Part shown: piece by piece, positions 54,579 to 58,208 of the stretch
Numbering within the stretch: the stretch's first letter is position 1
Layout of the letters: each line of letters opens with the position of its first letter
Origin: an uncultured Bacilli bacterium
Lineage (GTDB): Bacteria; Bacillota_I; Bacilli_A; RFN20; CAG-449
NCBI GenBank assembly: GCA_944332225.1
Contig: CALVJO010000005.1
Coordinates: 1-60,432, forward strand
Length of the DNA stretch: 60,432 nt
Direction of reading: 5' to 3'
Made by a program: the position numbers and the translations under genes
The notes under the pieces: generated by a model
What the model was told of the DNA's origin: nothing
What the model saw: only the letters and a program-made list of their open reading frames with translations
The model's database searches: none

Positions 54579-54607
54579 TTGATATTGTTTCTCCATAAAT
54601 ATACTAT
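54579..54607 (+). promoter_or_regulatory. promoter of the csoR-copA operon
   Basis: TTGATA (54579-54584) and TACTAT (54602-54607) are 17 nt apart. The -10 hexamer lies within the CsoR operator, so binding would block polymerase. Confidence 0.7.
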
Positions 54608-54622
54608 ATGGGGGTATAGTAT
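54601..54622 (+). promoter_or_regulatory. CsoR-type operator
   Basis: ATACTATA (54601-54608) and TATAGTAT (54615-54622) are perfect inverted arms around TGGGGG. A G-rich core between AT arms is the form known for CsoR operators (TACCxxxGGGGGTAxGGTA-like). It lies between promoter -10 and the csoR ribosome site, so csoR autoregulates. Confidence 0.8.
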
Positions 54623-54632
54623 AGGAGGATAT

Positions 54633-54908
54633 ATGAATCATACATATAGAACTGATGAAACAAAGAAAAAATTAAATGATCGAATAAATAGAATCAAAGG
54701 GCAGATGAATGGAATATCTAAAATGATAGATAAAGATCGTTACTGCGATGATATTTTAATTCAGCTCTCCGCGATTAATAATTCTTTAAAGAGCCTAGCA
54801 AATGAAATATTAGAAAATCATCTAAAAAACTGCGTCGTCTCTAAGATTAAAGAAGGAGATGAAAGTATCATTGATGATGTCATGTCTTTAGTTAAGAGGT
54901 TTCAATAA
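54633..54908 (+). CDS. csoR: CsoR-family copper-sensing repressor
   Basis: A 91-residue all-helical repressor that releases DNA when Cu(I) binds. The Cys-His-Cys ligand set is complete with correct spacing: Cys38 (DRYCDD), His63 (ENHLKN) and Cys67 (KNCVV). RINRIKGQMNGISKMI is the family DNA-contact helix. ATG 54633 follows AGGAGG; a longer in-frame TTG start at 54579 would place coding sequence over the operator. It lies 2 nt before copA and the operator lies directly upstream, so copper controls both. Confidence 0.93.
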   Translation: MNHTYRTDETKKKLNDRINRIKGQMNGISKMIDKDRYCDDILIQLSAINNSLKSLANEILENHLKNCVVSKIKEGDESIIDDVMSLVKRFQ

Positions 54909-54910
54909 AT

Positions 54911-57391
54911 ATGGAGAAGAAATTTGATGTAAAGGGCATGACCTGCGCGTCCTGCCAAGCTCATGTTCAAAAAGCAGTTGAAAGTCTTAATGGAGTTAAT
55001 AAAGTTAATGTTAATTTATTGACTAATTCGATGGATGTTGATTTTGCCTGCTCTATTGAAGATATTGAAAAGGCGGTTAAAAACGCAGGATATGAAGCAT
55101 CATTGCCTAATGAAACTAAAAATAATAAAGCTGAAGTAAAAGATTATGGCTTAGTTAAATTAATTATCTCATTAGTCTTATTGATAATACTCATGTATAT
55201 TTCTATGGCTCATATGGTAAATATACCGTTACCTTCTTTTTTAGATGGAATTGAGAATTCTTTAATTAATGCTTTTAGTCAATTTTTAATTAGTTTAATC
55301 GTTATATTCTTATATAAAGATTATTTTACTAACGGATTTAAACGCTTATTTAAATTATCGCCTAATATGGATTCATTGATCGCTTTAGGCGCGTCAGCAT
55401 CTTTTCTCTACGGGATAGTTTCTATCTATTTTATCGGCTACGGACTTGGGCATAATGATTTAGATATCGTGACATCTTATTATCATAATCTATATTTTGA
55501 TTCAGTAGTCATGATTTTAGCTTTGGTTAGCTTAGGTAAATATTTAGAGAATCTATCAAAGAAAAGAACCACGAAAGCAATTGAAAAATTAATAGCGTTA
55601 GCTCCTCAAGAGGCAAGATTATTAAAAGATGGTCAAGAGACTATAGTTAATGTAAATCAAGTTAAAGTAAATGACATTTTCATTGTTAAAAAGGGAGATA
55701 ATGTACCATTAGACGGAGTTATAGTTGAAGGTAAAGGATCGTTAAATCAGGCTAATATAACTGGAGAAAGCCTCCCAGTTTTAAAAGGAGTTGGAGATGA
55801 AATATTCTCTTCAACTATTCTTACTTCTGGATATTTAAAAGTTAAGGCTACTAAAGTAGGAGAAGATACTTCGATCAATCAAATCATCAAATTAGTCGAA
55901 GAAGCATCTAACTCTAAAGCTCCTATTTCTAAATTAGTCGATAAAATATCATTCTTTTTTGTCCCGACTATCTTGTTGATTGCTCTGATCTCATTTATCG
56001 CATTCTTAATTGCTTATGATTTTGAATTAGCCTTTAATATGGGAATATCAGTTTTAGTGATCGCCTGCCCATGCGCGTTAGGATTAGCCACGCCGGTTGC
56101 TATCATGGTTTCTTCAGGTAAAGGTGCGGAGAACGGGCTACTAATTAAAAACGCAGAGATACTCGAAAAGGCTCATAATATTAAAACTATTGTTTTCGAT
56201 AAAACAGGAACGATTACAGAAGGAAATCCTAAGGTTGTCGATATCATCGATTATACAGAAGATAATTTATTGATGAAGATTGCCTATTCTTTAGAATTAC
56301 AATCTGAGCATCCTCTTTCTCAATCAATTGTTAATTATGCAAAAGAAAAATCTTTAGACTATTTTAAAGTAGATAGATTTAATTCTTTAGAAGGTCTTGG
56401 TATCAAAGGAGATATTGATGGAGAATCATTTTATGGAGGCAATTATAAATTAATCATTGAATTAGGTCTTCAAAATGATGGTGTTGAAGAATTATTAAGA
56501 AACTTCTCTAAGCAAGGAAAAACCCCTCTAATATTCGCTTCTAATAAAAAAATATTAGGAGTAGTTGCGATTAAAGATGAAATTAAACCTCATTCTAAAA
56601 GAGCGATTCAAGAATTAAATAAAATGGGAATTAAAACTATCATGTTAACTGGTGATAATCTTGAAACTGCGAAAGTGATCGCAGAAGAAGTGGGAATCAA
56701 AGAATATATTGCTAATGTTTTGCCTCTTGATAAACAAAATGTGATTAATTCCTTAAAGAGCGATTCTCATCATTTGGTAGCAATGGTTGGAGATGGAGTT
56801 AATGATTCTCTAGCTTTAGCTAACGCGGATCTATCAATATCCTTAGGACATGGTAGCGATATAGCTATCGAGACAAGCGACATCGTGCTTTTAAGAGATG
56901 ATTTATTAGATGTTAAAAATGTTATTAAATTATCAAAGAGAACGATAAATACCATTAAATTTGGCTTGTTTTGGGCGTTTTTCTATAACTGTATCGGAGT
57001 AATCCTAGCATCTGGGGTTTTCTATCCTTCTTTTGGAATTAGATTAAATCCGATGATAGGTTCTTTATGTATGTCCTTTTCTTCAGTGTTTGTTGTCTTA
57101 AATGCTTTAACTATTAATTTCTTTAAAGTGGATAAAGATGATAAAACTCAAAATATAGATAAACCTATTAAGAGAAAGGAGGTGAAGAAGATGGAAAAGA
57201 TTACTTTACATGTTGAAGGAATGATGTGCATGCATTGTGTTAAGCATGTTGAAGATGCTTTAAAAAAAGTTGATGGAGTCAAAATAGTTGATGTTAGCTT
57301 AGATAAAAAAGAAGCTATTATCGAAGGAGAAAACTTAAATAAAGAAGAATTGATCAAAGCGATAGTCGCTTCTGGTTATCAAGCATCCTAA
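54911..57391 (+). CDS. copA: copper-exporting P1B-type ATPase fused to a C-terminal CopZ domain
   Basis: An 826-residue Cu(I) exporter. Residues 1-70 are an HMA domain (GMTCASC). The core shows TGES, the Cys386-Pro-Cys388 motif (IACPCALGLATP), the phospho-acceptor Asp430 (FDKTGT), the HP site (SEHPLSQS), GDGVND, and the class IB-1 metal ligands Tyr and Asn in TM7 (FFYNCIG) and Met and Ser in TM8 (LCMSFSS). After a charged linker (KRKEVKK) a second HMA domain (GMMCMHC) closes the protein, which is unusual: such a domain is normally a separate CopZ chaperone. A perfect internal ribosome site in the linker suggests it is also made alone. Confidence 0.93.
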   Translation: MEKKFDVKGMTCASCQAHVQKAVESLNGVNKVNVNLLTNSMDVDFACSIEDIEKAVKNAGYEASLPNETKNNKAEVKDYGLVKLIISLVLLIILMYISMAHMVNIPLPSFLDGIENSLINAFSQFLISLIVIFLYKDYFTNGFKRLFKLSPNMDSLIALGASASFLYGIVSIYFIGYGLGHNDLDIVTSYYHNLYFDSVVMILALVSLGKYLENLSKKRTTKAIEKLIALAPQEARLLKDGQETIVNVNQVKVNDIFIVKKGDNVPLDGVIVEGKGSLNQANITGESLPVLKGVGDEIFSSTILTSGYLKVKATKVGEDTSINQIIKLVEEASNSKAPISKLVDKISFFFVPTILLIALISFIAFLIAYDFELAFNMGISVLVIACPCALGLATPVAIMVSSGKGAENGLLIKNAEILEKAHNIKTIVFDKTGTITEGNPKVVDIIDYTEDNLLMKIAYSLELQSEHPLSQSIVNYAKEKSLDYFKVDRFNSLEGLGIKGDIDGESFYGGNYKLIIELGLQNDGVEELLRNFSKQGKTPLIFASNKKILGVVAIKDEIKPHSKRAIQELNKMGIKTIMLTGDNLETAKVIAEEVGIKEYIANVLPLDKQNVINSLKSDSHHLVAMVGDGVNDSLALANADLSISLGHGSDIAIETSDIVLLRDDLLDVKNVIKLSKRTINTIKFGLFWAFFYNCIGVILASGVFYPSFGIRLNPMIGSLCMSFSSVFVVLNALTINFFKVDKDDKTQNIDKPIKRKEVKKMEKITLHVEGMMCMHCVKHVEDALKKVDGVKIVDVSLDKKEAIIEGENLNKEELIKAIVASGYQAS
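57191..57391 (+). CDS. copZ: CopZ-like chaperone from an internal start within copA
   Basis: A 66-residue copper chaperone domain in the same frame as CopA. Its ATG lies 8 nt after a complete Shine-Dalgarno (AAAGGAGGTGA, 57175-57185), better than the site of most genes in this window. The product MEKITLHVEGMMCMHCVKHV... has the CxxC copper site and the full ferredoxin-like HMA fold of stand-alone CopZ. I infer that ribosomes both read through from copA and start here, giving a fused and a free form. Without internal initiation it would be only a C-terminal domain. Confidence 0.6.
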   Translation: MEKITLHVEGMMCMHCVKHVEDALKKVDGVKIVDVSLDKKEAIIEGENLNKEELIKAIVASGYQAS

Positions 57392-57449: not shown

Positions 57450-58208
57450 ATGTTTATTAACACTCTATCTTTCTTACCTACCAACGGGCAAACTATCGTA
57501 TGGGATTATATCTCAATTGCCTTTATAGTTATTTTAATCATCGCGGTGATTATAAATGCGGTTAAAGGATTTGCTACGTCTTTAATATCTTTAGTAGCAG
57601 GATTAGGATCGATAGTATTAGCTGTCTTATTAGCGACTCCGGTGGGTAACTTGCTCTATCAAACTGGTTTAGGACCATCAATTCAAGGAGGAATTAATGG
57701 ATGGGTATCCTCATCCTTAGGCTCTCTAGCCGATATGGCGTTGACTGAAGAAAACTTAGCTCAAGCGTTTAGTCAGTTAAATATTCCTGAAATATTAGCT
57801 AATCCATTAACTGAGATGATAGCTAATGCGAATTTAGATACTGCAAGCGTCGCGGAAGCTATATCAACATCTTTAGCTAACTATGCCTGCATCGCGATTT
57901 CCTTCATCGTCTTATGGATCGTCTTCTTAGTTGTCTTCTCATTGTTAGGTAAATTAGTCAAAGGCATTAACAAGATACCATTAGTCGGGGTCTTAAATCA
58001 TATCCTTGGAGGAGTCTTTGGTTTAGCTATCGGTTTATTAGTTTGCTTCTTAGCTTGCTATGTCATTCAATTAATCGGATCGATGAATGGTGATTTAAAT
58101 GAAACATTCTCAGAAATGATGCATTTAACAGATGAAGGTGCTTGGTCGATATCTAAAGCACTTTATGAAATCAACTTCATTCCAAAGATTATTGAAGCCT
58201 TGCTATAA
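57450..58208 (+). CDS. CvpA-like membrane protein
   Basis: 252 residues with four or five membrane helices in the CvpA pattern: ISIAFIVILIIAVIINAVKGFATSLISLVAGLGSIVLAVLLATPVGNLLY at the start, and GKLVKGINKIPLVGVLNHILGGVFGLAIGLLVC later, where the IPLVGxxNxxLGxxFG motif is diagnostic. The middle loop is long and contains helices (LAQAFSQLNIPEILANPL). The family has been linked to colicin V production in E. coli, and to cell envelope stress; its true role is not settled. GGGGGTACAG precedes the ATG and a terminator follows. Confidence 0.82.
   Translation: MFINTLSFLPTNGQTIVWDYISIAFIVILIIAVIINAVKGFATSLISLVAGLGSIVLAVLLATPVGNLLYQTGLGPSIQGGINGWVSSSLGSLADMALTEENLAQAFSQLNIPEILANPLTEMIANANLDTASVAEAISTSLANYACIAISFIVLWIVFLVVFSLLGKLVKGINKIPLVGVLNHILGGVFGLAIGLLVCFLACYVIQLIGSMNGDLNETFSEMMHLTDEGAWSISKALYEINFIPKIIEALL

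Follow-up and report, generated by a model that had tools for sequence, protein, structure and literature searches.

A conserved internal ribosome site in the copper-pump gene copA of Bacillota and the free CopZ-type chaperone that it may encode

Can a single copper-pump gene yield the pump and also, from its C-terminal end, a free copper chaperone? The question is raised by copA (54911..57391, strand +) of an uncultured Bacilli bacterium of the CAG-449 lineage (assembly GCA_944332225.1, contig CALVJO010000005.1). The window, i.e. the whole stretch of DNA analysed, is 60,432 nt long. The gene encodes an 826-aa Cu(I)-type P1B ATPase with an HMA domain at both termini, and a ribosome-binding site is found inside it, just ahead of the second HMA domain. 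A programmed frameshift giving a free protein, CopA(Z), was reportedly described in Escherichia coli copA by Meydan et al. and by Drees et al. in 2017. In E. coli, CopA(Z) consists of the N-terminal domain, the translation of which ends early after a -1 frameshift. From comparative sequence analysis, we consider that the copA studied here would be one gene with two products, the pump and a free CopZ-type chaperone made from an internal start, and we give this reading a probability of roughly 0.86.

The internal site and its conservation

The internal Shine-Dalgarno sequence AAAGGAGGTGA (57175..57185, strand +) was recognized by its sequence and duplex energy and by the conservation of its position in relatives. 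It is contained in the linker that joins the last membrane segment to the C-terminal HMA domain (57116..57190, strand +), the lower edge of which was set at the end of the TIGR01511 match (residue 735). A spacer of 5 nt (AGAAG, 57186-57190) separates it from an ATG start codon (57191..57193, strand +) that is in frame with copA. This ATG opens a copZ-like open frame (57191..57391, strand +; 66 aa), which encodes the C-terminal HMA of CopA and, in our reading, the free CopZ. Paired with the canonical anti-Shine-Dalgarno tail, AAAGGAGGTGA gave a duplex energy of -21.9 kcal/mol, against only -7.0 for the start of copA itself. An energy of -21 was reached by none of the 3422 other in-frame ATGs of 144 related copA genes. 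The pattern AAAGGAGGTG-N4..9-ATG occurred twice in the 1.33 Mb genome, once as the copA internal site, and had no occurrence when read backwards.

Related genes were gathered as 189 copA loci: L001 from the window, 29, 80 and 19 loci from homology searches and 60 hand-chosen regions. This sample was neither exhaustive nor random, and the source search for the hand-chosen regions matched 166 of 392 genomes. Loci L002-L009, which are other places in the same genome or repeats of L001, were excluded from all counts. The C-terminal HMA was in the copA frame at 167 of the 189 loci. The 22 unfused loci (14 with an HMA frame downstream of copA and eight with none within 1500 nt) were excluded from the motif counts. 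A greedy filter at 80% identity retained 144 of the 167 fused genes as representatives, with a median pairwise identity of 45.5%. The start was picked by place alone (within six codons at the domain edge), blind to any Shine-Dalgarno, and a Shine-Dalgarno was called strong when it reached -8 kcal/mol or better in the 15 nt upstream of the start. Earlier counts, which used the start with the best energy and codons from strong-motif genes only, were redone without this selection and gave the same outcome.

In searches with the whole protein, fused homologues turned up within the same genus, the same family and the same order, and throughout the class. Others came from records titled Acholeplasmatales, Clostridia, Erysipelotrichaceae, Lachnospiraceae, Spirochaetales and Gordonibacter. 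Cultured species are included among the loci (Anaerovibrio lipolyticus, Catonella morbi, Pseudoflavonifractor phocaeensis and a Gordonibacter). A start codon stood at the HMA edge in 133 of the 144 representatives (131 ATG and two GTG), where the Met rate in the rest of the protein predicts about 18% with a start at the domain edge; further upstream in the linker, Met was found at 29 of 2448 positions. The Shine-Dalgarno was strong in 128 of the 144 representatives, or 128 of the 133 with a start, versus 122 of 3422 other in-frame ATGs. This signal was local, with 96% at the start codon and ≤5% at 12 to 75 nt upstream. The spacing from the AGGAGG register to the start was 7-8 nt in 94 of 130 representatives. 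As a yardstick, the own start codons of copA reached -8 in 91 of 143 genes, and the internal site was stronger than the own start in 86 of 132.

The start codon and the motif were kept or missing together. A -8 motif was present in the linker of 130 of the 133 genes with a start and in 0 of the 11 startless genes, in which the best energy anywhere in the linker was -5.9. All 11 startless genes came from one search draw (start and motif in 73/87 there and in 78/80 of the other draw). Genes L027, L029, L129, L146, L151, L153, L156, L159, L162, L176 and L178 resemble the copA of the window in their fused C-terminal HMA and differ from it in having neither a start codon nor a Shine-Dalgarno at the junction. 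In L090 and L139, GTG (Val) replaces ATG (Met) beside a strong Shine-Dalgarno; GTG is also a start codon, so that Val is tolerated there.

Two or three tandem C-terminal HMA domains were observed in some CopA proteins (L103, L099, L151, L153 and L159). In L099 and L103, the internal site stands at the last domain and at no other, and L151, L153 and L159 are without it.

These results bear on a preliminary description of the window, made from its letters alone. It had reported a near-full match to the anti-Shine-Dalgarno followed 5 nt on by an in-frame ATG, which is confirmed to the nucleotide (57175-57185 and 57191). It had predicted a free product of 66 residues, and 66 codons do run from the ATG at 57191 to the stop. 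It had also held that linkers without a Shine-Dalgarno in relatives would speak against internal initiation; the counts above went the other way. Internal in-frame initiation giving a free CopZ, which it had proposed, is well supported at the sequence level by a start, a Shine-Dalgarno and a spacing that are kept across the 144 representatives while the linker peptide varies.

The predicted product and other HMA genes

Initiation at 54911 would give the whole pump, with a copper-binding HMA at each end. Binding of ribosomes at 57175-57185 would lead to initiation at the ATG at 57191 and would give the last 66 residues alone. This product would be a soluble chaperone of the CopZ type that takes cytoplasmic Cu(I) and passes it to the pump. 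The use of the site, the amount of free protein and the carriage of copper by it are what we infer; the site itself, its conservation, the selection on its nucleotides and the age of the fusion are what the sequences show. Taken alone, the 66 residues matched PF00403 at 58.0 bits (cut-off 24.8) and contain MMCMHC, as expected for an HMA fold with an MxCxxC motif. Within CopA, the C-terminal HMA domain covers 57203..57382 (strand +; PF00403, 56.9 bits), with MMCMHC as its copper-binding motif.

The free product could be made and serve to buffer copper or to act on CsoR, rather than as a delivery chaperone. With a median of -3, its net charge is below those of free CopZ (-1.5) and the N-terminal HMA (-1), and csoR adjoins copA. 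We regard this alternative as unlikely, because the product is nearest to free CopZ among HMA domains: in all 12 cases, the free CopZ encoded beside unfused copA was closer by score to the C-terminal HMA than to the N-terminal one, and structure matches of the 66 residues include CopZ (2qif_A and 1cpz_A).

In the genome of the window (96.8% complete), HMA was matched four times: copA and another ATPase account for two matches each, and no separate small HMA gene was among them. Without the internal start, the assembled sequence would encode no free HMA protein. The second heavy-metal ATPase of this genome (G000:C12:3503-5620) has two N-terminal HMA domains.

Other genomes were examined for a small HMA frame elsewhere. 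Counting was manual and took in every open frame of ≤150 aa with an HMA match, and the weak-motif genomes G391 and G215 were grouped with those that had lost the site. Such a frame was found in 11 of 14 genomes without the site versus 28 of 58 with it (Fisher p = 0.07, uncorrected for kinship); p rose to 0.15 once a match below the Pfam cut-off (G167) was omitted. Among 12 genomes, i.e. the startless ones and that of L038, where a GTG stands without a usable motif, nine held another small HMA frame. These figures are weak and no more than suggestive of a free copZ compensating for a lost site. At L162 (G126:C37:5283-5688), a stand-alone HMA frame of 73 aa lies no more than 50 nt downstream of a startless fused copA and may act as the chaperone in its stead.

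Selection at the junction and age of the fusion

The hexapeptide before the start had 127 different sequences among 128 genes, and the motifs occurred in each of the three codon phases (90, 34 and 6 of 130 genes). Random synonymous recodings were generated with the codon usage of each gene itself. The observed energy was better than the mean of these recodings in 126 of 133 genes (mean -11.3 versus -6.7 kcal/mol). Inside the motif, Glu at -4 was encoded by GAG in 70 of 81 cases (expected 22.2), Lys at -5 by AAG in 51 of 71 (expected 27.7) and Gly at -4 by GGA in 23 of 28 (expected 8.8). Just outside the motif, there was no excess of GAG at -3 (11/68, expected 20.9) or of AAG at -2 (16/55, expected 19.5). 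Judged by codon choice, these counts show that synonymous codons at the junction are chosen for the motif, with selection on nucleotides and not on residues. An internal start and a properly spaced Shine-Dalgarno, conserved beyond the need of the protein, are the sequence marks of programmed in-frame internal initiation, and both were found here.

A tree of 165 rows was built with FastTree from the pump cores, without the linker and the C-terminal HMA. Of the 128 fused genes that carry the site, 125 fall in one well-supported branch of 146 rows, which spans Bacilli, Clostridia, Spirochaetes and an actinobacterium. Losses of the site are spread over the tree, the fused genes having switched at least 11 times between having and lacking it. 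The remaining three, L177, L179 and L180, share a branch with unfused genes. L172, a fused gene with a weak site, and L195, in which a separate copZ overlaps copA by 1 nt, are sisters with full support. The fusion thus arose more than once, and that of L172 is likely to be recent and independent. In L194, the frame is broken at the junction: copA stops a short way past the place where the internal start is expected, and the HMA is encoded in a different frame. The break could reflect an error of sequencing or a true frameshift.

The preliminary description had offered a recent loss of the stop codon between copA and copZ as a second origin for the gene of the window. That suggestion was ruled out, because the fusion is shared with relatives in the same genus, the same family, other families and another phylum and lies deep in the CopA tree. 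The likely origin would be an old head-to-tail copA-copZ pair that lost the stop codon and the difference in frame, the copZ ribosome site being retained by selection after the joining.

The site could be a relic, i.e. the leftover ribosome site of a once-separate copZ after a recent stop loss, with no present function. In unfused neighbours (L182, L183, L195, L154 and others), the start of copZ indeed lies between 20 nt upstream and 27 nt downstream of the copA end, and single fusions elsewhere look recent, as in L172 with its weak site against its sister L195. A relic would be expected to decay as identity falls to about 45%, yet the choice of synonymous codons keeps to the motif, and fusion and site occur together in 125 of the 146 rows of one branch. 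As a general account, the relic is refuted by the codon-choice test, within what sequences can tell, and we find it very improbable.

A constraint on the protein would make the Shine-Dalgarno a by-product of a Lys/Glu-rich linker followed by the Met that opens the HMA fold. KEE is the commonest motif peptide (31 representatives' motifs), and even with synonymous recoding these peptides give -6.7 kcal/mol on average. Such a constraint is scarcely credible in view of the diversity of the hexapeptides, the three codon phases, the codon skew that is present within the motif and absent from the adjacent outside Glu and Lys codons, and the Val allowed as GTG in L090 and L139. A slowing of ribosomes by Shine-Dalgarno-like stretches inside genes has been proposed and is disputed, and the location of the motif soon after the last membrane segment would suit a pause that aids membrane insertion or folding with no role in initiation. 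We find this very improbable, since pausing needs no start codon at a fixed spacing of 7-8 nt, start and motif are present or absent jointly, and linkers of varying length keep no constant distance to the membrane segment. Codon choice, the variety of the peptides and the coupling of start and motif led us to set aside both the peptide constraint and the pause site.

Several observations weigh against a dual-start copA. Sixteen of the 144 representatives are without a strong site (11 lack start and motif and five have a start with a weaker motif), so that the pump can do without it. In the site-bearing group, the 28 of 58 genomes counted above also hold another small HMA frame. The 66 residues scored below the NCBI cut-offs for CopZ (NF047957, 80.7 versus 85; TIGR00003, 56.6 versus 62; NF033794, 59.1 versus 95; NF033795, 52.6 versus 91), and the product is for this reason termed CopZ-like. 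The 3' end of the 16S rRNA of this genome was looked for in the assembly and not found, and the energies therefore assume the canonical anti-Shine-Dalgarno. Folding of the mRNA around the internal site was unremarkable in either direction.

Gene context, known systems and significance

The product of copA matched TIGR01511 at 564.4 bits (cut-off 397), which identifies the CopA core, and its translation contains the CPC and DKTGT motifs of Cu+-exporting P1B-type ATPases. Pfam matches on CopA were PF00122 and PF00702, for the E1-E2 ATPase and haloacid-dehalogenase parts, and two stretches of PF00403. The first of these PF00403 stretches is the N-terminal HMA (54923..55096, strand +; 62.8 bits), which covers residues 5-62 of CopA. 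A csoR-type gene for a copper-sensing repressor (54633..54908, strand +; PF02583, 94.3 bits, cut-off 22.8) stops 2 nt 5' of copA. Just 5' of csoR (54600-54630 of the window) is an imperfect palindrome with a G run, ATACTATATGGGGGTATAGTAT, which fits what we would expect of a CsoR operator and which we take to be a putative one. A cvpA-like gene (57450-58208) lies 3' of copA.

Dual products of copA have a precedent: PMC9548414 describes the free chaperone CopA(Z) of E. coli, made from copA by programmed frameshift. As in E. coli, a single copper-pump gene would here give the pump and a free HMA chaperone, the latter predicted from sequence. The two systems differ in that E. coli uses the N-terminal domain and a frameshift, whereas the gene studied here would use the C-terminal domain and an in-frame internal ribosome site. 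The route itself resembles that of cas8 and cas10d, in which, according to PMC11899642, an in-frame internal start gives Cas11, the free C-terminal domain of the same protein, with a Shine-Dalgarno proposed upstream of the internal ATG. In that system, Cas11 is a subunit for CRISPR interference and was shown experimentally, whereas the copA product is predicted. The separate copA-copZ operons of Bacillota (L154, L182 and L195) have the same two domains in the same order, and their copZ has a ribosome site of its own, sometimes inside the end of copA. They differ in the stop between the two frames and in the lack of a fused C-terminal HMA. Neither internal initiation in copA nor a fusion of CopA with CopZ turned up in the open-licence literature of PubMed Central, to which the search was confined (subscription papers being outside its scope). 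Set beside these systems, the gene studied here would be a copA with two products, the second made by in-frame internal initiation at the C-terminal end.

Many Bacillota of the gut and rumen would quite probably carry a dual-start copper export gene, in which the ratio of the two products would be set by the internal ribosome site and which would have evolved independently of the E. coli frameshift. The chaperone would have stayed unannotated because gene callers stop at the long frame. If the reading is true, it means convergence on one gene for pump and chaperone, at the opposite end of the protein from E. coli, and its scope would be several classes of Bacillota and beyond. A Shine-Dalgarno at a domain junction, together with codon choice held to that motif, would offer a practical route to hidden proteins in fused genes. 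For genomes without a separate copZ, such as the one studied here, a dual-start copA would explain how the chaperone is supplied.
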